A DNA stretch of 64,000 nucleotides from Ilumatobacteraceae bacterium (GTDB lineage Bacteria > Actinomycetota > Acidimicrobiia > Acidimicrobiales > Ilumatobacteraceae). Shown piece after piece: positions 4,637 to 48,922 of the stretch. A model generated the notes under the pieces. It was not told where the DNA came from. It worked only from the letters and a program-made list of their open reading frames with translations, and did not search any database. The stretch's first letter is position 1. Each line of letters opens with the position of its first letter. The position numbers were made by a program, and so were the translations under genes. The stretch lies in NCBI GenBank assembly GCA_021299715.1, contig JAJTEL010000003.1, positions 1 through 64,000 of the forward strand, read 5' to 3'.

Positions 4637-7600
4637 ATGCAGTTTCTGAGTACGACATTTCTTCCTGTACTCACCAACTGTCGGCGTATGCGCCTCGTGA
4701 CAAGTTGGGTTCTAGCCATAGTGCTGATGGTCCCACTACAGCAACACATAGTTCACGCATATCAAGCAGGTGGAACGGTTTCAATGGCGGTGCAAACCGG
4801 TTACTCCGGTCTAACAACCACCATCTCTGTCAGTAATTCGAGTGCCGTCACAATCGAACCCGGATCTTTTATGAACAGTGGTCGAGATGGGTCCGTAGAC
4901 GGTAGTACATACACACCAAATGTCACTGGAGTTCAAGGTCTTCAATGGGTGACGTATGGATCTGGTTGTCCCATGCCCGCGGCAGGCGCCACAACAAATA
5001 GTTGTTCAAAAGGAACTGTCACCTTTACGTTTTCGCGGCCAGTTGCAAATCCCGCATTTCATATCCACGACTTTGGTGGACGAATGGAAGCTAACTGCAA
5101 ACTCGCAATTCAGGGGACCATGGCACTTGCCAGTTCGTCGCCTGCCGGTGCGACTTTTACAAAATTGTCTGGCGGCATCACTGTGTCAGGAACCTCCATT
5201 ACAGGACGTGCTGCAACTGCACCGATGACAGAGTCCAGCCATTCAAGTGGCACCGTGCGAGTAAACGGAACTGTCCAAACATTGACGTTTAATTACTCCG
5301 TCATTCTCACGCGACAAGGATCCACATGTTCATATGACAACGACACAATGTTGATGTCTGCGGGCGAACGGCTCAATGCAACATTCTCGTACGGAGAAGA
5401 CTTGGGAGATGGTCCATCTTCTCTGGAATCATCCAGTGCTGCCAGCCATGTCATTGGCGACTTAAAAATGGGTTCTGCATCGCTCTCGGCAGAGGCTGCT
5501 ACCACATTGAATTCTTCGTCAGCACCCATCACCGCATCTCCACTTGCATCAGCAAATGCAACAGGTGACAACGATGACGCAATTACTGGATCCCCAGTTG
5601 ACGCGAGTATTGGTCAGGATTACTCGCTCACAGTTCCAATTTCAGGTGCGAGTCAATCTGGACAAGTCTGCGGGTATATCGACTTGAACAACAGTGGCAC
5701 CTACACAACTAGCAATCCGAACGAACGAGCGTGCACGAATTTTGCAGCCAATGCCACCTCTGCTGTGATTGCGTGGACATCAGCACAGTGGCCTGCCGGA
5801 GCAACTCCCGCAACGGTAGGGCTACGGCTTCGTGCCTCTTACGGAACTGGAGCCTCTAGCCCTACTGGTCCAGTCGATTCAGGCGAGGTGGAGGACTATC
5901 GAATTGCGTTGGTCTCTCCCGTTCCCCCGGCCGCAACACCGCTCCAATCGACCGGAACTCAGGACAGCAACCAAACTTTTACTCCCGCCACTTCACAAGG
6001 ACAGTTTGTTGCTGGCCTCACGTGCATCGTGTCTGGCGCCACGTGCGTCTCCAGTTTGGTTGTACCGAACGAAGGTACGTACACAGTTAACGCCAACGGA
6101 TCCATCACATTTGATCCACTGTCTTCCTTTACGGGGAACGCAGCCCCCATCTCATATCGAATTGAGGACTCTCAAGGCCGACAGTCAACATCAACTGCGT
6201 CGGCCACAGTTGTTGCGCGTCCAACTGCGTTGGATGACTCATCAAGCACTACCTATAACACTGCAAAAACAGTTGCGGTTCTCGGCAATGACTCATCAGC
6301 GGCAGGAACAACTCTCGACGCAACTTCGGTGAAACTTTGTGATGTTGGTCAAACTGTGCCGAACTGCACCGCATCAAGCGTGACTGTTCCAAACAAGGGA
6401 ACTTTCACCCGCAATTCTTTAACAGGCGAAATCACCTTTACTCCACTCTCTACGTTTACGGGATCGGCTTCAATTGACTATCAAGTTGCCGACTCACTTG
6501 GCGGAATAGATGGAGCTCAGCTCTCGATGGCGGTGGCTCCACCAGATGCACCGTCTGCTTCACCAACTCAATCATCCGGAAAACTAGATACCAATCAAAC
6601 AATTGCGTTAAGCGCAGCAGCAGGTGCTGGAACCTCTCTTGACCCGTTACAGACGTGCATAGTCTCAGGCTCTTCATGTGTGCGCAGTTTGGTTGTGGCG
6701 AATGAAGGTACGTACACAGTTAACGCAAATGGCACCGTTACTTTTGACCCCCTGCCAACGTTTACCGGCAACGCCACGCCCCAGCAATACCGCGTCTTTG
6801 ACGCGGTTGGTCAGCAAGCACAATCAACTCTCTCTCTCACTGTCGCTGGTGTGCCACAAACACAGAGTGATTCTTCCAGTGGAGCATTCGACACAAACCA
6901 AACCATTTCAGTACTTGGCAACGACTCGGCTGGAAGTGGCACAACGCTCACTGCATCAACAGTTCGCATCTGCACCGCAGTAACAGCGAATGCTTCATGC
7001 ACGCTTACGTCCTTGGTCGTTGCGAATGAAGGGACATACACAGTCAATCCCAACGGCACCGTCACTTTCGATCCTCTGCCAACATTTATTGGAAACGCCA
7101 CCGATGTTAAGTATGTGGTTTCAGATGGATTCGGGCAGACCAACTCAGCGCTCATTGATGCGACGGTTAGCGCGCCAAATGCGGTTGTACCTGCCGTTGA
7201 CACTTCCAGCGGTATTGCCGGCCAGAACCAAACCGTAAACCCCTTACAAAACGACAGTGCACCAAGCGGTGTCACCAAGAATGCGGCAAGCGTCCGCCTA
7301 TGTGGCAGCGCACAAACCAGCCCTAACTGCACGGCAACGTCTGTGACCGTGCCAAACGAGGGAACCTACACAGTCAATACAACAACTGGCGAAATTACAT
7401 TTGCGCCAACTGCGGGTTTTTCGGGACCAGGAGTTGGCGTTACATACGTAGCGACGGATTCTCTCGCGCGCACATTCTCATCCACGTACTCACCGTCTGT
7501 TGTTCCGCCTCCAACGCTTACTTCCGACGTGTCGACGGGTGCGTATGACGTCACGCAAACTATTTCAGTTCTTTCAAATGATGCAGCAGCTTCGGGCACC

Positions 7601-9652
7601 ACATTAAACGCGTCAAGTGTTCGCATTTGTACTACCTCTACAAGCAATGCGGCGTGCACTCTCACCACTCTCACTGTCCCTAACGAAGGGACATACACGG
7701 TCAATCCCAACGGCACCATCACTTTCGATCCTCTGCCTTCGTTTGCAGGCACTGCCACACAAATCAAGTACGTCGCTTCCGACGCTCTCGGGCAGACAGC
7801 AAGTTCCACCATAAGCACGCAAGTTGCTACTCCGCCCGCGCCAATTGCTTTGCCAGAATCAAAAACACTTCTTGCCGGTCAGACGGCGCTCTTTAGTTCT
7901 GTGGTTACCCCAACTGGACTTGTCAGTGGCAACTTAGTCGTAGCAGGAAACGTCTCAAACGGTCCATGTTTGATTGACCCATCTGATTCTCAATGCAAAT
8001 CCACATTTACAATCGCAAACCAAGGAACCTGGACTATTGACCAAACAACAGGAATTGTTTCTTTTGCGGCCAATCCCAACGTAACTCCAGGTTCACTGAC
8101 AAGTGTCGCGTACCGCGTGACAGACCTACTCGGACGAACCGCAACGGCCTCACTCACACCCGTTATTCCTGCCACCCCAACGGCGACGCCGGACCAAATC
8201 ACAACGGCATGGAACACAAGCGCTACGTCTCAAGTCATCAACAACGATGCCGCCGGAACTGGAACTACTTTGTCTGCAGCATCAGTGGCACTATGTGGCC
8301 GTTCTCCCCAGCAAGTTGCGCCGTCATGTACGCAATCGTCTGTGACTATCCCTAATGAGGGCACTTTCAGACTCGGATCGAACGGTTCGGTTGTGTTTGA
8401 ACCCCTCCCCACGTTCGTTGGGCAAGTGTCGCCAGTTTCGTACCAAGTATCTGACGCTCTGGGCCAGACAGCGACCGCAACTGTGCAAGTGACAGTGCAA
8501 ACCCCAGCCGCTTCAATTGCAACATCAGAAACTCGTCAGGTCTCACAAGGAGCAGAGGCAAATTTCTCGCCACTTCTTGGTACCTCTGGGTTAGTTCGCA
8601 CTCCAACGGGGGCTCCGGCTCTGGTACCAACATCAATGTGCGTGGTGAACCCTGCCAACAACTCATGTACAACTAACGATGTTGTCATCGAAGGTGTCGG
8701 TACTTATTCATTGAATACCTCGTCTGGAATTATCACTTTCACTTCGCTCTCAACTACGCCAGTTGGCCCGGTGACGCCCCTCACCTACAGAATCACCGAT
8801 GCTCTTGGTCGTACCGTTACTGCTCAACTCACTCCCACCGTGTACCAAGGCCCCGCAGCGCGAGACGACGTGTCCGTTGGTGCCCCTGGTACAACACAGT
8901 GGATTTCTCTGCTTGGAAATGACACACCAGCGCTAGACAAGAAGCAATTGAAGCCATCATCTATTCGGTTATGCGCAGCTAGCGAAGTTGCGCCTCAGTG
9001 CTCAAAATTGTCTGTCACTGTTCCCAATGAGGGAGCATACTCAGTGACAAACAATGGAATCGTGAAGTTCGTGCCCCATCGCAATTTCACTGGTGCCAGT
9101 CTTGGTGTTCAGTACATCGTGAAAGATTCTGCAAATCGTTCAGCTTCTGCACGTATCTCACCCAAAATTGAATCATCACCTGTTCCAGTCGCACATCCCG
9201 ACTACAAGACTGGGAAGTCTGGAAGCACGATTTCAATTAACCCTCTTAGTAATGACAAAGCCGCTGCTGGTTCCGTATCAACCCAAGGAAAAATCACACT
9301 TCTTGCCACATCGGTTCGCCTCTGTTCGAAGGGGGAAAATGTTCCCTCGTGCTCAGCAACCGAAGTTGTCACACCGGAGGGAACGTACCGTGTGAATACC
9401 AAAACTGGAGTGATTTCGTTTACTCATGCAAAAGGTTTTTCCGGAACCGCTCTTCATGGAATTACTTATCAAGTCACAAACTCTTCCACCAGTGCTCAGA
9501 ACAGTGCTTCGAGCGTGTTCGTACCAACAGTGGCGCAACAACCGACCCTCCCGACGACTGGTCTTTCGCCGCTATCGGTGCTCATCAACGCACTGATTCT
9601 GTTAATCGTTGGAATTTTGCTTACTCGCTTGCCGCGAAAAAGAATTGACTAA
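4637..9652 (+). CDS. Giant CshA-repeat, LPXTG-anchored surface fibril protein
   Basis: A protein of 1671 residues. A signal peptide follows either the ATG at 4637 or, more classically, the internal ATG at 4688 (a basic start then a hydrophobic run ending near IVHAYQAGG). Neither start has a strong ribosome site. A GEVED-like domain sits at about residues 311-425 (ends SGEVEDYRI). Then come about ten CshA-type fibril repeats of roughly 100-110 residues, recognisable by VPNEGTYTVN, ITFDPLPTF and YxVxDALGQT. The end is a complete sorting signal: LPTTG near residue 1637, a hydrophobic helix, and RLPRKRID. A sortase should link it to the cell wall. CshA repeats form adhesive fibrils in streptococci, so an adhesion or cell-contact role is inferred. 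Most of the protein lacks lysine and is Thr/Ser/Ala rich, as is usual for exposed stalks. Confidence 0.88.
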   Translation: MQFLSTTFLPVLTNCRRMRLVTSWVLAIVLMVPLQQHIVHAYQAGGTVSMAVQTGYSGLTTTISVSNSSAVTIEPGSFMNSGRDGSVDGSTYTPNVTGVQGLQWVTYGSGCPMPAAGATTNSCSKGTVTFTFSRPVANPAFHIHDFGGRMEANCKLAIQGTMALASSSPAGATFTKLSGGITVSGTSITGRAATAPMTESSHSSGTVRVNGTVQTLTFNYSVILTRQGSTCSYDNDTMLMSAGERLNATFSYGEDLGDGPSSLESSSAASHVIGDLKMGSASLSAEAATTLNSSSAPITASPLASANATGDNDDAITGSPVDASIGQDYSLTVPISGASQSGQVCGYIDLNNSGTYTTSNPNERACTNFAANATSAVIAWTSAQWPAGATPATVGLRLRASYGTGASSPTGPVDSGEVEDYRIALVSPVPPAATPLQSTGTQDSNQTFTPATSQGQFVAGLTCIVSGATCVSSLVVPNEGTYTVNANGSITFDPLSSFTGNAAPISYRIEDSQGRQSTSTASATVVARPTALDDSSSTTYNTAKTVAVLGNDSSAAGTTLDATSVKLCDVGQTVPNCTASSVTVPNKGTFTRNSLTGEITFTPLSTFTGSASIDYQVADSLGGIDGAQLSMAVAPPDAPSASPTQSSGKLDTNQTIALSAAAGAGTSLDPLQTCIVSGSSCVRSLVVANEGTYTVNANGTVTFDPLPTFTGNATPQQYRVFDAVGQQAQSTLSLTVAGVPQTQSDSSSGAFDTNQTISVLGNDSAGSGTTLTASTVRICTAVTANASCTLTSLVVANEGTYTVNPNGTVTFDPLPTFIGNATDVKYVVSDGFGQTNSALIDATVSAPNAVVPAVDTSSGIAGQNQTVNPLQNDSAPSGVTKNAASVRLCGSAQTSPNCTATSVTVPNEGTYTVNTTTGEITFAPTAGFSGPGVGVTYVATDSLARTFSSTYSPSVVPPPTLTSDVSTGAYDVTQTISVLSNDAAASGTTLNASSVRICTTSTSNAACTLTTLTVPNEGTYTVNPNGTITFDPLPSFAGTATQIKYVASDALGQTASSTISTQVATPPAPIALPESKTLLAGQTALFSSVVTPTGLVSGNLVVAGNVSNGPCLIDPSDSQCKSTFTIANQGTWTIDQTTGIVSFAANPNVTPGSLTSVAYRVTDLLGRTATASLTPVIPATPTATPDQITTAWNTSATSQVINNDAAGTGTTLSAASVALCGRSPQQVAPSCTQSSVTIPNEGTFRLGSNGSVVFEPLPTFVGQVSPVSYQVSDALGQTATATVQVTVQTPAASIATSETRQVSQGAEANFSPLLGTSGLVRTPTGAPALVPTSMCVVNPANNSCTTNDVVIEGVGTYSLNTSSGIITFTSLSTTPVGPVTPLTYRITDALGRTVTAQLTPTVYQGPAARDDVSVGAPGTTQWISLLGNDTPALDKKQLKPSSIRLCAASEVAPQCSKLSVTVPNEGAYSVTNNGIVKFVPHRNFTGASLGVQYIVKDSANRSASARISPKIESSPVPVAHPDYKTGKSGSTISINPLSNDKAAAGSVSTQGKITLLATSVRLCSKGENVPSCSATEVVTPEGTYRVNTKTGVISFTHAKGFSGTALHGITYQVTNSSTSAQNSASSVFVPTVAQQPTLPTTGLSPLSVLINALILLIVGILLTRLPRKRID
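7023..7080 (+). repeat. CshA repeat segment, copy 1 of a near-identical pair
   Basis: This stretch encodes NEGTYTVNPNGTVTFDPLP and is almost base-for-base the same as 7683-7740, including synonymous positions. Other CshA units in the gene are clearly more diverged. This suggests recent duplication or gene conversion within the gene. Confidence 0.75.
7683..7740 (+). repeat. CshA repeat segment, copy 2 of a near-identical pair
   Basis: Second copy of the segment at 7023-7080, about 660 bases (two repeat units) away. Only a few bases differ, one of which changes Val to Ile. The direct repeat could support unit-number changes by recombination and may cause assembly collapse. Confidence 0.75.
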
Positions 9653-30636: not shown

Positions 30637-32541
30637 TCACTGCACTGTGACTTTCAGCGTGGTGCTCATCTTTGGGTATGTGCGCCACTTCGCCACAGTC
30701 AGTCTGATGGTGCACGTTGTTGTGCGCTTTGGAGCAACGAGTCGACCAGATGAGAAAGAGCACAACCCCGATTCAGTCCATGTCTTTTTCCCTTTCGATG
30801 GCGTCGTGAGAATCCATGACAAAGGGGTTCGCGAACTTTTCTTTACGGCGGTTTTCTTCACGGTAAATCCGGGTCGCACGGTAATTGTGGTGGGTAGCGA
30901 CAACAGTCCGGTGACAGATCGAACTTCTACTGAAAATGTGTAGTTCGTTCCGTTGGTAAGTCCGCCAATGGTGCATGTTGTTTCTGTTGTGACACATCCA
31001 GCCGATGGTGGAACAGATGACACCACGTAGACAGATCCGACAACAGGTGCTGGTGTCCACGACATAGTTGCAGACTTATTAAGCGATGCAACTGTTGCGA
31101 CCGATGGTGCAAGAGGAAGTTGTCCCGCAACAACCGTTGTCTCGGCAACAGGCCCGAATCCGTCTGCGGTTGATCCGATAACTGAAATTATGTATGTGGT
31201 TCCGTTCACTAGGCCAGTCACTGTGCACGTTGTTCCGCCAACAACTGTGCACGATGCAGACCCCGGAGTTGCGGTAGCCGTGTAGGTGGCGCCGGCCGAA
31301 ATGCCGTCCCACGACACCACAGCCCCACCATTTGATGGAACTGCCGCAAGTTGACGCACCTGACTAGGCACAGACGGAACATACAGAAGTCTGTTAGGAG
31401 TTTGCGACGTACGACCCGAATTGAAATAGGTAATGGCATTCAGAGTTGCGTTGCCACTTAACCAGTTCCATGCAGCCGTGGATCCGGTAGCGAACGACGT
31501 TGGCCCCACTTCCATTAATTGCAGATAACGAGCCAATGCGCCAGCAACAAAGGGAGACGCCATTGATGTACCCGACAAACCGGCATACGTGTTGGTTACT
31601 CCATTCAGATATGGGTACGCGGAAGGGATTGCGCCGCCCTGTATTGATGAACCGCCTGGTGCAAACATGTCCACACAGGTGCCGTAGTTACTGAAGGAAC
31701 TCTCGCCGTCTAACAATGTGGACGAGCCCACAGAGACAGTTCCGAACGTAGACGCTGGCGTAGCGCTACACGCCGATGTTGCACTGTTCCCCGCTGCAGC
31801 GGTCACAAGAACGCCCTCGTTCATAAGAGACGTGATTGCGTTGTCTACTTCGGCGACTTGCTCGCCGAAACCAACACTGAGATTTAGAACGGCTTTCGTG
31901 CCTGGATTGTGGTTGGCAAGTATCCACGCCAGACCTTCCACAATCATTGTGCGAGTTCCGTTGCCACACGAATCGAGTGCGCGAATAGGAATGACTGTTG
32001 CGTTCTTTGCAACACCAACTCCATCTCCTGCCGCAATTGCTGCAACATGTGTTCCGTGCCCGTCGTTGTCGGTACGTCCAACATCTGTGGCATCGGGTAA
32101 TTGAGGCGCATCGAATGTTGCAGGGTCAACGGCGTGGCTACCGTCATTTGGGCACGCTTGAATTCCGGACTGCGGGTTAGACAGTGCGTTTCGATAACTG
32201 TTCAATGCGGTAGCGCTAGAGCGATAACTCCATCCGTTTGCCACGCGAGATCCAAATTCAGGATGATTTCCCGAAACACCAGAATCGAGAACGTAAATGT
32301 TGACACCCGTTCCATCGTTGGAAAAATTGTATGAACGAGTGCTGGTCACGGGAGTGCGTTGGTCGATGCGATCGAGTCCCCACGACAACGAACCTGTTGG
32401 CCCGGTTGTTTGTGGAGACGATGTCACCAATCGGCGCGCAATAGGTTCTGCCTGAATTACACGTTGTGCTTGCAGTGGCGTTGCGGAAAGTACGGCGACA
32501 AGAAGAGCCGTTACCGCGGCAACACCGCCCCACCGCTTCAT
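30637..32541 (-). CDS. Secreted subtilisin-like serine protease with fibronectin III domains
   Basis: A 634-residue S8 peptidase. A signal peptide (about 1-26) and short propeptide precede the catalytic domain. The catalytic triad is Asp86 in VLDSGVSG, His162 in DGHGTHVA and Ser326 in GTSMASPFVAG, with the oxyanion Asn in AAAGNSATS. Two fibronectin type III-like domains (about 395-560) and a basic beta-rich C-terminal domain follow. It is exported and probably degrades external protein. The ATG at 32541 overlaps the folD stop (TGATG), an odd coupling with a folate enzyme that may only reflect gene packing. Confidence 0.92.
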   Translation of the reverse strand: MKRWGGVAAVTALLVAVLSATPLQAQRVIQAEPIARRLVTSSPQTTGPTGSLSWGLDRIDQRTPVTSTRSYNFSNDGTGVNIYVLDSGVSGNHPEFGSRVANGWSYRSSATALNSYRNALSNPQSGIQACPNDGSHAVDPATFDAPQLPDATDVGRTDNDGHGTHVAAIAAGDGVGVAKNATVIPIRALDSCGNGTRTMIVEGLAWILANHNPGTKAVLNLSVGFGEQVAEVDNAITSLMNEGVLVTAAAGNSATSACSATPASTFGTVSVGSSTLLDGESSFSNYGTCVDMFAPGGSSIQGGAIPSAYPYLNGVTNTYAGLSGTSMASPFVAGALARYLQLMEVGPTSFATGSTAAWNWLSGNATLNAITYFNSGRTSQTPNRLLYVPSVPSQVRQLAAVPSNGGAVVSWDGISAGATYTATATPGSASCTVVGGTTCTVTGLVNGTTYIISVIGSTADGFGPVAETTVVAGQLPLAPSVATVASLNKSATMSWTPAPVVGSVYVVSSVPPSAGCVTTETTCTIGGLTNGTNYTFSVEVRSVTGLLSLPTTITVRPGFTVKKTAVKKSSRTPLSWILTTPSKGKKTWTESGLCSFSSGRLVAPKRTTTCTIRLTVAKWRTYPKMSTTLKVTVQ

Positions 32542-44445: not shown

Positions 44446-45813
44446 TCAGCCTGCGCTGATCTTTGCTACCTGAGCAATTGCCTTTGTCAAAATGGCTCCC
44501 TGAAGCGCGGTGTACCCGGCTCCGGCAGCATTCTTTGGCGCACATTGATTCAAGAAGAAGGTGAAGTAGCTCTTCACCGATGTGTTGTCGGCGCTGACGG
44601 TCTTCGATGCAAGTCCGTAAGAGATTGCGTTAATGGGATACGCATCTGCTGCGGTGTTAGCGAAGTTCTGGGTAACAAGTCCCGTGTCTGCCACTTCTGC
44701 GGCCTCGAACCAGATTGCCGAGCTCACTGGAGATGGCTGAACAAAGCGCTTTCCTGGGTTCATCACTGCTGCGGACTTCACGCCACGCTCGTCGAGGAAC
44801 GACAGTTCTGCATAGGTGATTGCACCGTTGTTATCACGAACATAGTTTGCAAGTCCTTCGTTACCACGTGCCGACTGGAACGAACCGTCGGTGGGAACAG
44901 TTCCGGGGAAAGCTGTGGCGAAGGTGTCGCTGGTTGGCTTTGTCCAGATTGCTGGGAACGACTTGTTTAAATAGTTTGCAAAGTTGTTCGTTGTTCCCGA
45001 TCCATCGCTGCGATGAACAACACGAATGGGAAGATTCGGGAAAGTGATAGTGACACCGTCGACTACGTCTTCAACCGCCAGAATTCCGATGGTTGTCTTG
45101 CCAGCTTTCACTGTGTACACAGTGTCCTTTGCGTAGTTAATAGAACGTGTCACGGTTGCACGTGGTGCTGTTGAAGTCACAATCTTTGGTGAACCGCCAA
45201 GTGCAGTGCGAGTGATAGTCACTTTTGACTTTGCAAACTTTGCGCGAGCAGCCGAGCTCATCTTTACTGTGAAGTTGACTTTCGTGCCTACTTTGGCCAC
45301 AGTTGCAGTGACGCCTGCAGCTGAAGATGTCAGTTTCTTCTTGACGTTGGTTGCCTTGTTGACAGCAGCAATAGCTGGGTCATTCCAGTTCGTAATTTGG
45401 CCGGCAAAGATCTTTGCTACCAATTCACCAGTGAGTCGAACTTGCGCATTTGCTGGGCTCAAACCATCAACCTTGTAGCCAATGGCAATCGGTCCGCCTA
45501 CCAGTGGCACGTAGACCAAGTCAGCAGGCGCTGTGCCTGATGAATACGCAGACTCTGAGCCACCGAACTTATAGGTGCGGTTTGCAAAGTTGGTCTTTCC
45601 GGAACTAGATCCGACTGATGCGTAGGTGACGACATCTGATGCGGTGTTGTATTGCGAGTTGCGGTTGTACAACGCAGCGCAAATATCCATCATGTTGGCA
45701 AGGAAGCTTGCGCCGCCTCCACCGATTGGTGCAGCACTTACTGGGCTGACCGGAGTCATACTCGCGACTGCTGCAATTGCTGCAACCGCCGCCAACTTAC
45801 GACGAAGTTTCAT
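44446..45813 (-). CDS. pstS: Phosphate-binding protein PstS with an inserted domain
   Basis: A 455-residue periplasmic-type binding protein, longer than the usual 320-380. The signal peptide ends near SPVSA-APIGGGG without a lipobox Cys, so it may be freely secreted or wall-trapped rather than lipid-anchored. Phosphate-site motifs GGGGASFL, FGGSESAY and RSDGSGTT (268-275) are intact. Between TNWNDPAIAAVNK (about 141-153) and LPIRVVHRSDG (about 261) lies an extra segment of some 100 residues rich in Val/Thr/Lys that looks like an Ig-like beta domain. Normal PstS has only a few residues there. AGAAGGAG precedes the ATG, and a PHO box lies upstream. It feeds the PstCAB transporter. Confidence 0.92.
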   Translation of the reverse strand: MKLRRKLAAVAAIAAVASMTPVSPVSAAPIGGGGASFLANMMDICAALYNRNSQYNTASDVVTYASVGSSSGKTNFANRTYKFGGSESAYSSGTAPADLVYVPLVGGPIAIGYKVDGLSPANAQVRLTGELVAKIFAGQITNWNDPAIAAVNKATNVKKKLTSSAAGVTATVAKVGTKVNFTVKMSSAARAKFAKSKVTITRTALGGSPKIVTSTAPRATVTRSINYAKDTVYTVKAGKTTIGILAVEDVVDGVTITFPNLPIRVVHRSDGSGTTNNFANYLNKSFPAIWTKPTSDTFATAFPGTVPTDGSFQSARGNEGLANYVRDNNGAITYAELSFLDERGVKSAAVMNPGKRFVQPSPVSSAIWFEAAEVADTGLVTQNFANTAADAYPINAISYGLASKTVSADNTSVKSYFTFFLNQCAPKNAAGAGYTALQGAILTKAIAQVAKISAG

Positions 45814-45903
45814 AGGGGTTTCTCCTTCTGGGTTTTCTTCCCAGTGGCAACCTACGAAACCTACTTATCGGCAATCCTTACGGGCGTTAAACGTTTGACA
45901 ATG

Positions 45904-45925
45904 TTTGAGTGAACAAACAGTGAAC
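45904..45925 (-). promoter_or_regulatory. PHO box upstream of pstS
   Basis: On the minus strand GTTCACTGTTT is followed at once by GTTCACTCAAA: two 11-base direct units matching the Streptomyces-type PhoP box (GTTCACC-N4). It lies about 90 bases before the pstS ATG, downstream of the pstB stop, so pstS has its own phosphate-controlled promoter. No phoR-phoP pair is in the window. Confidence 0.75.
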
Positions 45926-45931
45926 GCGTAT

Positions 45932-46819
45932 TCAGCCAAAACGACCCTGTACGTAGTCCGCCGTGCGCTGATCGGAGGGGTTCGAAAAGATGTTGGTGGT
46001 GAGATCGGCTTCAACTAAACGACCTGGTCCGCCATCGGACAAGAAGAATGCGCAGTAATCACTTACGCGTGCTGCCTGCTGCATGTTGTGCGTCACCATC
46101 ACAATTGTCATGGATTCAGAAAGCTGAACAATTGTCTCTTCGACACGCAGGGTTGAGCCTGGGTCAAGAGCAGAACATGGTTCGTCTAGCAACAACACAT
46201 CCGGCTTTAATGCCAATGCGCGGGCGATACACAAACGTTGTTGCTGTCCGCCCGACAACGAGCCACCTGGAGCCTTCAAACGATCTTTTACTTCATTCCA
46301 AAGACCAGCGCGAGAAAGACAGTCTTCAATAAGCGCATCTTTGTCGTCAGTTTTTACGCGGGCAAGTTTTAGACCGGCAACGACGTTTTCACCAATATTC
46401 ATTGCAGGAAATGGATTCGCCTTCTGAAACACCATGCCAATTCGGCGACGAATTTCAATGGGATTCACTCCTGGAGCGTAAATATCATTGCCTTCAAACA
46501 ACACCTCACCAGCCATAGCTGCTTTTGGAATGAACTCGTGCATTCTGTTGAGCAAACGAAGGAAAGTTGACTTACCGCAACCAGATGGACCAATAAGGCC
46601 AGTCACCGTGTTTTCGGGAAAGTGCAACGAAACATCTGCTAACGCGTGGTGCTTGTTGAACCATGCGTGCACACCAACCGCTTCAAGTCCACCGCGGCGA
46701 GACACTTCCAAGTTTCCGGCGTTGCGCTGAGTGCGATCTTCCACAATGCCACTGTCGGCCGGAACCGATGGAACGATGACTTCTGGTGAACCGATTTCGT
46801 TATTCATGTTGTTATCCAT
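45932..46819 (-). CDS. pstB: Phosphate ABC transporter ATP-binding protein
   Basis: A 295-residue PstB. Walker A is [26 protein letters not shown], signature [15 protein letters not shown], Walker [15 protein letters not shown] and switch [13 protein letters not shown] are classic. An unusual N-terminal extension of about 48 residues, acidic then basic and probably disordered, precedes the ATPase core. It drives phosphate import by PstA/PstC. The gene starts nine bases after the pstA stop and is the last of the pstCAB transcript. Confidence 0.95.
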
Positions 46820-46828
46820 TGTGTGTAC

Positions 46829-47881
46829 TTACTTTCGTGAAAGGCGTGAACTGAAGAGTCGAGCAAAAACAAAGAGGACGAAGACAACACCAAGAAGCAC
46901 AAGAGAACCGCCCCATGCGCGTGTGGTGGCATTGTCGTCGCCCAAACCAAGACTTGAAAAGATGTAAATAGGAAGACTTGCAATAGGTTCGGTAAGGCTT
47001 GTCGTCGTCGCAACGAAATATGAAGCAGTCAAGATGAGTGGTGCTGTTTCGCCCACAACACGCGCAATTCCAAGAACTGCTGCTGTCACCAATCCCGATG
47101 CCACTGTTGGTAGCACCACTCGAAATGTGGTGCGCGCCTGTGACGCACCAAGCGCATAGCTGGCAGAACGAAGATCTTCTGGAACAATCTTCAGCACTTC
47201 TTCTGATGTTCGGGCAACGGTGGGAAGCATGAGAATGACCAGCGACAAGGCACCAGCCCATGCACTAAACCCACCGAAAAAGATCACCACCGTGGCGTAG
47301 ATGAAAAGACCGGCCACAATTGACGGCACACCGCTCATTGCCTGGGTAAGGAAACGCACCATCTTTGCGAAGCGCCCTTTAATTTCCACAATGTAGACAG
47401 CAGCGAGAATTCCCAATGGGACCGCGATGAGCGATGCGATGAGAACCATCAAGAGCGTGCCGATGATTGCGTGTGCCACTCCCCCGTACTGCAAGAGATC
47501 ACTTGACGGGGTAATGCGCATGTCGTCCGTGAGGTACTTGGCATGAAACGCCTTAGAACCTTTTTGATACACCGTGACCACGATTGACACCCATGGAATT
47601 GTCACTGCTGCAAATGCAACGGTGATTAATGACGTGGCCAAGCGGTCAGTCGCCATGTTCCATCCGTGCTTCACGGACCCCACAAACGCAAGTAACGGCA
47701 TTGCGAATGCGAGACCGACATACCAACCAAGGAAACCGCTGAGTCCGGTAAACGAGTTCAAAAGCGAACCAAACACACCGGAAAGAACGACCAAAACTGC
47801 GACTCGAAGAGCCGTGGCGCGCGAATGGTCCCACGGGCGACGTGGCTGTGGCACGACGTCGGTGTACTGATACGTGGTCAT
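46829..47881 (-). CDS. pstA: Phosphate ABC transporter permease PstA
   Basis: A 350-residue permease. Three N-terminal helices are followed by the BPD_transp_1 domain with the EAA-type loop (ALGASQARTTFRVVLPTVASG). IVEIKGRFAKMVRFLTQAMSGVPSIVAGLFIY is the segment typical of PstA. Longer than E. coli PstA because of additional N-terminal helices, as in other actinobacteria. It pairs with PstC to form the phosphate channel. The start codon overlaps the pstC stop by four bases (ATGA). Confidence 0.94.
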   Translation of the reverse strand: MTTYQYTDVVPQPRRPWDHSRATALRVAVLVVLSGVFGSLLNSFTGLSGFLGWYVGLAFAMPLLAFVGSVKHGWNMATDRLATSLITVAFAAVTIPWVSIVVTVYQKGSKAFHAKYLTDDMRITPSSDLLQYGGVAHAIIGTLLMVLIASLIAVPLGILAAVYIVEIKGRFAKMVRFLTQAMSGVPSIVAGLFIYATVVIFFGGFSAWAGALSLVILMLPTVARTSEEVLKIVPEDLRSASYALGASQARTTFRVVLPTVASGLVTAAVLGIARVVGETAPLILTASYFVATTTSLTEPIASLPIYIFSSLGLGDDNATTRAWGGSLVLLGVVFVLFVFARLFSSRLSRK

Positions 47882-48840
47882 ACAATTTTCCTTGAACGGT
47901 TCACAATGACAGTGGCAAAGAAGTTCACCAAGAGCGTGACCAAGAACAACACAAGTCCGGCCGCCATAAGACCTTTCAGTTCGTACGCCGTTGCCTCACC
48001 AAACTTGTTCGCAATCAACGAGGCAACGTTGCCGCCAGATGAAGCCAAGATTTGGAAATTCACTTTGAACACAAGATTCAATGTGAGGTACACAGCAACG
48101 GTCTCGCCCATTGCTCGGCCAAGACCCAACATGGCACCACCTACAAGCCCGCTCTTGCCAAATGGCAACACCACCGTTTTGATGCCAGCCCATTTCGTGC
48201 CACCAAGCGCGTACGACGCGTCAACAAGATCGCGCGGAGCTTGGCCGTACACCTCGCGTGCAACCGATGTGACGATGGGCAAAATCATGACGGCTAGCAG
48301 AAGTCCCGCCAGCAAAGGAGACCTACCAAAAATTGGTGTTTGCACATTGAACAACGGAAACCAATTCAGGTACTTGTACAACGTTGCCGACCAGTCTTCA
48401 ACAAGTGGAAGCAGAACCACATAGCCCCAGATGCCATAAATAACCGATGGTATGGCAGCAACTAGGTCTAGAACTGCGGTGAGCAGTGTGCGCAAAAAAC
48501 GTGGTGCGTAGTATTCAATGAAGAGTGCTGCAGCAATTGCAAACGGAACAGCAACTGCAATAGCAATGAACGCAGTCAGTACAGAGCCCACCAACATGGC
48601 GCCAATACCCAATACGGCAGTACTTGGATCTTCTGGATTTCCAATATCCCACTTTGATGTTGTAATGAATTTCAGGCCGTAGTCCGCAAAAATTTCGAAA
48701 CCGCGGAACAACAAAAACGCTGCAATGAGGATGAGAACAACCAATGAGAACAGTGCCGCTGAGGAAACAAATCCGCGGAAGACTTTGTCGACCGTGGTGT
48801 AGTAGGTCTTAATCTCTCGCTGCTCTGGCGGGGAGTCCAT
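47878..48840 (-). CDS. pstC: Phosphate ABC transporter permease PstC
   Basis: A 320-residue permease with six or more helices. Typical PstC features are FITTSKWDIGNPEDPSTAVLG in the first periplasmic loop, AALFIEYYAPRFLRTLL, DLVAAIPSVIYGIWGYVVL and the EAA loop ALGGTKWAGIKTVVLPFG. I use the ATG at 48840; a GTG three codons earlier (48849) is possible, and neither has a strong ribosome site. It is the first gene of pstCAB, and a three-unit PHO box lies 50-80 bases upstream. Confidence 0.94.
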   Translation of the reverse strand: MDSPPEQREIKTYYTTVDKVFRGFVSSAALFSLVVLILIAAFLLFRGFEIFADYGLKFITTSKWDIGNPEDPSTAVLGIGAMLVGSVLTAFIAIAVAVPFAIAAALFIEYYAPRFLRTLLTAVLDLVAAIPSVIYGIWGYVVLLPLVEDWSATLYKYLNWFPLFNVQTPIFGRSPLLAGLLLAVMILPIVTSVAREVYGQAPRDLVDASYALGGTKWAGIKTVVLPFGKSGLVGGAMLGLGRAMGETVAVYLTLNLVFKVNFQILASSGGNVASLIANKFGEATAYELKGLMAAGLVLFLVTLLVNFFATVIVNRSRKIV

Positions 48841-48892
48841 CGTTAGCACGACGAAAGTTTTCCAGTACTACCTGTACCCCAATAGACGACAA

Positions 48893-48922
48893 GGTGAACG
48901 AGGGGTGAACAGGTAGATGAAC
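48893..48922 (-). promoter_or_regulatory. PHO box upstream of pstC
   Basis: On the minus strand three units begin GTTCAT, GTTCAC and GTTCAC with 12- and 11-base spacing, the pattern of tandem PhoP-binding units in actinobacteria. The position before pstC and the second box before pstS predict induction of the whole phosphate uptake set under phosphate starvation. Confidence 0.78.

Follow-up and report, generated by a model that had tools for sequence, protein, structure and literature searches.

The pst locus

The window, i.e. the whole stretch of 64,000 nucleotides analysed here, carries a pst cluster on its minus strand in the order pstC-A-B-S. Open reading frames and synteny identified the first gene, pstC (47878..48849), and pstA (46829..47881), both encoding permease subunits, and pstB (45932..46819), encoding the ATPase subunit and syntenic with its homologues. 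The last gene, pstS (44446..45813, stop codon included), encodes a protein of 455 residues. Its ATG start codon is at 45813-45811 and its stop codon at 44446-44448, and it is preceded by an AAGGAG ribosome-binding site (45822..45827), all on the minus strand.

Two PHO-box-like direct repeats were detected by pattern search, both on the minus strand. One, GTTCACTGTTT GTTCACTCAAA, lies in the gap between pstB and pstS (45904..45925, the core at 45909-45925 being an exact match), while the other, also exact, lies upstream of pstC (48894..48910). These were the only two exact matches in the 64 kb, and no further repeat appeared there when up to one mismatch was allowed. At least two matches were obtained in 11 of 100 shuffled sequences, though not specifically at these two sites. 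The repeat upstream of pstS recurs in relatives. In S. coelicolor, the pstS box is made of two 11-nt direct repeats (PMC7866108). Since pstS has a PHO-box-like repeat of its own in the window, the gene is probably inducible separately from the rest of the cluster and in excess of it.

The pstS product matched the Pfam family PBP_like_2 (E 5e-27) and TIGR00975 (E 1.3e-46), the latter in two stretches flanking an inserted domain. Searches with NF008171 and with phmmer against the PstS chains of the PDB likewise produced two stretches, on either side of residues ~154-256. The TIGR00975 score of 159.2 bits is below the equivalog cut-off of 205, the match being split by the insert, and we therefore name the protein a variant PstS rather than a TIGR00975 equivalog. 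It starts with a Sec-type signal peptide (residues 1-27, 45733..45813), probably cleaved between V-S-A and A. The first part of the periplasmic-binding-protein (PBP) lobes follows (residues 28-152, 45358..45732; family matches over 30-167, PDB matches over 13-154), then the inserted domain (residues 153-257, 45043..45357) and the second part of the lobes (residues 258-455, 44449..45042; TIGR00975 stretch 256-452), which contains the RSDGSGTT motif (268-275). The phosphate-site residues S36 F37, G68 S69, R268 and S272 G273 T274 are all present and mostly invariant. The protein thus combines the two-lobe fold, the phosphate site and the pstC, pstA and pstB company of a PstS, and by family membership it would be expected to transport phosphate.

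One position of the binding site deviates. Asp56 of E. coli PstS makes a short hydrogen bond to phosphate; its place is taken in the window by Glu87 (45553-45555, minus strand), as in many close relatives, other genera having Asp. The exchange might change affinity or specificity. Two cysteines, C45 and C424, are nearly invariant among the insert-bearing PstS (one homologue, L025, lacks both) and could form a disulfide joining the N- and C-terminal helices.

Position and reality of the insert

W143 and R268 lie 124 residues apart in the window PstS, as against 23 in canonical PstS by the same measure, giving an insert of about 101 residues. The insert is located in the loop that connects the helix of TNWNDPAIAA to the strand of RSDGSGTT, where it splits the two PstS lobes. 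The initial annotation had set about 100 extra residues at 153-257 (bases ~45040-45357), separating this helix from a strand that normally follows closely; the numbers are right for the minus strand, and the two spacings bear out the separation. It had also put the domain next to the phosphate-binding loop, which holds along the sequence; in space, PBP topology would place it on the surface of a lobe, away from the ligand. Indeed, the strand following the insert (264-268) ends at the cleft arginine R268, while its N-terminal end, on the outside, is the one attached to the insert. The domain should hence stick out of the second lobe on its outer side.

About 20 other genomes of the same genus or family encode complete PstS proteins that carry the insert at this position. 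As the insert also has low dN/dS values and shows no indels in close pairs, it is neither a chance feature nor an assembly artefact. This result confirms that PstS has acquired a domain in one family of aquatic Acidimicrobiia, mostly with small genomes. Conservation across five genera rules out that the insert is recent or mobile. An origin from a domain repeated elsewhere in the genome was rejected as well: no second copy is present there, and the only similar sequence was a remote module at a C-terminus in a related genome. With 0.49 in the insert and 0.52-0.53 on either side, the GC content shows nothing unusual. No report of a PstS with Ig-like or other inserted domains was found in the literature searched. 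The paper on PDB entry 9l8j reportedly describes an "evolutionary hotspot" in a Synechocystis phosphate-binding protein.

Predicted fold

AlphaFold2 modelling of the window PstS with 49 sequences produced a model with a mean pLDDT of 91.6 and a pTM of 0.82. With the whole model as Foldseek query, the best PDB matches were all PstS (nearest 8ods and 4lvq, and also PstS of E. coli and M. tuberculosis), while later, weak matches of about the length of the insert were antibody V domains and CBM56. In the model, residues 155-252 form strands and one short helix with a pLDDT mostly between 80 and 97. The same strands were obtained when the insert was predicted alone (mean pLDDT 86), and the resulting model is a beta-sandwich of seven or more strands. 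Structure prediction had been named beforehand as a check on this domain, and it returned a confidently folded segment; together with the 23-residue spacers of canonical PstS, the model rules out that the insert is disordered or a normal part of the lobe.

The insert alone retrieved CBM56 first, then antibody and other sandwich domains, all weakly (E 0.01-0.1). The CBM56 match (5t7a, 6a6c), with E 0.012, TM 0.51/0.58 and 13-16% identity, represents the nearest solved fold. Members of the insert family gave scattered weak matches to the Pfam families Big_5, Big_6 and Big_3_5 (best E 8e-4), whose beta-sandwiches are of similar size; the window insert matched no Pfam Big family above its curated cut-off (Big_5, 12.9-13.6 bits against 23.6). 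Big domains occur in arrays within surface proteins, unlike the present insert, which sits in the middle of a binding protein. Y233, nearly invariant among the inserts, is reminiscent of the tyrosine in strand F of Ig and Fn3 folds. The Ig-like character proposed at the outset is thus well supported as a predicted fold by the two models, the Foldseek searches and the weak Big matches, for a sandwich that probably folds independently, belongs to no named Big family and may be of any Ig subtype.

Compared with the known PstS (TIGR00975; 8ods from X. citri, 4lvq or PstS3 from M. tuberculosis, 1pbp/1ixi from E. coli), the window protein shares the fold (target-normalised TM 0.80-0.88), the RSDGSGTT phosphate motif and the adjoining pstCAB genes. 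It differs by the Ig-like insert, the absence of a lipobox, the last position of pstS and E87 in place of E. coli D56.

Distribution and selection

A profile of the insert matched 46 of 150 genomes of the family, all strong matches falling in five genera (g1, g2, g4, g6 and g34) with genomes of about 1.2-2.3 Mb. In a class-wide sample of 395 genomes, the profile matched in no other family, and order-level relatives have PstS without the insert. Most of the named relatives are MAGs of aquatic origin that bear the label Acidimicrobiaceae, Ilumatobacteraceae or simply Actinomycetota. In two genomes of the same genus (G026, G031) and one of the same family (G036), no PstS of the window class was detected at an estimated completeness of 93-98%.

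The insert evolves faster than the lobes, with for instance 43-50% identity against 71-86%. Its dN/dS nevertheless ranges from 0.05 to 0.49, and no insert indel was found in 11 close pairs. By these comparisons the insert is under purifying selection, and its presence in five genera marks it as old.

The same loop in other lineages

PstS of Nanopelagicales type (L050, L056-L068 and others) carry a basic insert of 34-45 residues in the same loop. Its sequence is different, with a conserved YKKDxxGxxxKDxxGxPxVLR-like pattern, and looks hairpin-like; no similarity to the Ig-like domain was detectable in it. The window PstS has further in common with these and similar freshwater actinobacterial proteins the absence of a lipobox and the gene order, pstC-A-B-S with pstS last being found in both the Ig-like and the Nanopelagicales classes. 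Lipoprotein PstS whose spacer is 23 residues long have, by contrast, the order pstS-C-A-B where the contig shows it. The family f22, which has small genomes and belongs to the same order as the window genome, has pstS first, yet lacks the lipobox; its loop expansions are smaller (29-50 residue spacers) and some are lysine-rich. Taken together, the alignments indicate that this loop is a hot spot for insertion in the PstS of aquatic Actinobacteria.

Charge of the insert

The charge pattern, like the substitute-anchor pattern and the comparisons with modules of other proteins given below, was picked out post hoc, after inspection of the data. The window insert has a net charge of about +14, against +2 for the lobes. 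Over 39 Ig-like inserts the mean was +12, against +1.4 in the lobes, and in all but one of these inserts (38/39) the charge was above that of every lobe segment of matching size. The 22 inserts of the hairpin class had a mean charge of +6.3. Only one or two insert positions are conserved while the basic charge persists, indicating that what is maintained is the net charge and not a particular site. Aromatic residues make up 4.7% of the insert and 10.4% of the lobes, and none is conserved except one core tyrosine. The exception to the basic charge is the second copy in a tandem pair of insert-bearing PstS genes (L042:67-2799), which is of unusual composition and globally acidic (lobes -9, insert -5).

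Lipobox and anchoring

Monoderm bacteria normally retain their solute-binding proteins by lipidation. The lipid anchor was said to be missing from the window PstS, and the signal region agrees: an AxA site is present and a lipobox is not, so that the protein lacks the lipidated cysteine of actinobacterial lipoprotein PstS. Loss of the lipoprotein pathway was ruled out as the cause, since the window genome carries both lgt and lspA. A LivK binding protein encoded in the window is lipoprotein-like and acidic (-32).

In a survey of 146 PstS, none combined a lipobox with an expanded loop; 61 had a lipobox and a canonical loop, 73 an expanded loop without lipobox, and 12 had neither. Among the insert-bearing proteins, L039 and L052 have cysteines within the signal but were counted as non-lipidated because of the AxA site downstream of them; L030 and L080, canonical proteins that the pattern had failed to pick up, were counted as lipoproteins. 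The association between absence of the lipobox and presence of an insert was strong (Fisher p 4e-29) by a statistic that ignores ancestry. The tree requires about two changes in the lipobox and about six in the loop, with a single independent discordant pair, and the association is therefore inseparable from ancestry.

Most of the 12 PstS with neither feature have another possible holding device, calls of a C-terminal membrane segment or of a signal anchor being made by simple sequence rules. These devices are a C-terminal membrane helix (L028, L188, L191), a basic C-terminal tail (L149, L026), an adjacent gene for a lipoprotein PBP (L071, L074, L078, L087) or an uncleavable-looking signal anchor (L055 copy 2). 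In L172 and L187, which have no lipobox and no insert, no obvious substitute was seen. The proteins with a C-terminal helix are 501-543 residues long, and pstB or pstA lies upstream of their pstS. In the four cases with a neighbouring lipoprotein gene, this gene follows the insert-free, unlipidated PstS (L071:7095-8339, L074:7100-8083, L078:3752-5026, L087:7134-8204) and encodes a diverged PBP-like protein starting with CTPPMPP, CDPPMPP or CTPPIPP.

The L055 locus contains two adjacent pstS copies (6001-8396) that are 74% identical over 403 alignment columns (53 gaps). In copy 1, a loop insert (+14) is combined with a cleavable signal. Copy 2 has no insert, and its product starts with a hydrophobic run of 21 residues without an AxA site. 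In this one case, membrane anchor and insert appear to swap roles between the copies.

Possible roles of the insert

The reading we favour, to which we would give slightly less than an even chance, is that the insert is a charge-based surface retention module replacing lipidation. PstS would be exported by means of a cleavable signal peptide, without lipid anchor, and its Ig-like beta-sandwich would fold by itself on the outside of the second lobe. Being strongly basic, the insert would bind anionic envelope polymers or the membrane and keep PstS at the cell surface. The PstS pool driven by the PHO box would then stay beside the PstCAB permease instead of diffusing off. We infer both the retention and its electrostatic mechanism. 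The initial annotation had suggested a wall- or partner-binding module in lieu of the lipid anchor. This proposal stands in part, on correlative evidence: the basic charge, the fact that the insert never occurs with a lipobox, the L055 pair and the basic modules found elsewhere. Ancestry, however, confounds the link to the lipobox. This confounding also counts against retention, as do L172 and L187 without a substitute and the acidic insert of L042 copy 2.

Ig-like folds are common protein-interaction modules, and the insert might instead dock PstS by shape, not charge, onto a specific protein such as PstC/PstA, another PstS (oligomerisation) or a surface phosphatase. Its exposed position on one lobe, deduced from topology, and the proximity of pstS to pstCAB wherever the contig shows it are consistent with docking. 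A fixed interface would however be expected to have more than one or two conserved positions and not to evolve faster than the lobes; moreover, in other lineages with this gene order, the site is occupied by a short loop of unrelated sequence. We regard docking as rather doubtful. Somewhat less probable still is that the insert is a passenger with its own fold, tolerated in a permissive surface loop with little effect on transport or location. Although the acceptance by this loop of unrelated inserts of several kinds and lengths, and the faster divergence of the insert, would suit a passenger, the purifying selection, the constant length in close relatives, the maintenance across five genera with small genomes and the strong basic charge persisting despite sequence drift all argue against it. 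Tethering of PstS to cell-wall or extracellular glycans by a carbohydrate-binding module is improbable: the best structural neighbour of the lone insert is CBM56, a beta-1,3-glucan-binding sandwich, but that match is weak (13% identical), and the insert is poor in the aromatic residues that usually form glycan-binding platforms, those it has being unconserved bar the core tyrosine.

Extended to other lineages, charge-based retention would imply that PstS of aquatic Actinomycetota lost its lipid anchor, after which the same loop was repeatedly expanded by unrelated basic modules, among them the Ig-like domain and hairpin-like loops, that hold the protein at the envelope by charge. We put this scenario forward tentatively, as a possibility that falls well short of even chances. 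If true, abundant aquatic Actinobacteria living on scarce phosphate would have exchanged lipid for basic inserts, another solution to transport, and a monoderm cell would retain a solute-binding protein at its surface in a non-lipid, modular way. The insertion also shows that a PBP loop can take up an entire folded domain, which is useful for sensor design.

Basic modules in other exported proteins

Unlipidated exported proteins of the same genus carry small basic beta modules at their C-terminus, on bodies that are neutral or slightly acidic. Proteins of the L126 type have a charge of +12 to +17 in 65-74 residues, the body being at -1 to -2. The L126 module showed a weak relation to the PstS insert (67.5% in hhalign; HMMER score with a large composition bias) and is perhaps distantly related to it. 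In the window itself, an exported subtilase with fn3 domains (30637-32541, minus strand) ends in a 76-residue module with a charge of +15, against -8 for its body. This module looks beta-rich and is present in a single copy in the genome.
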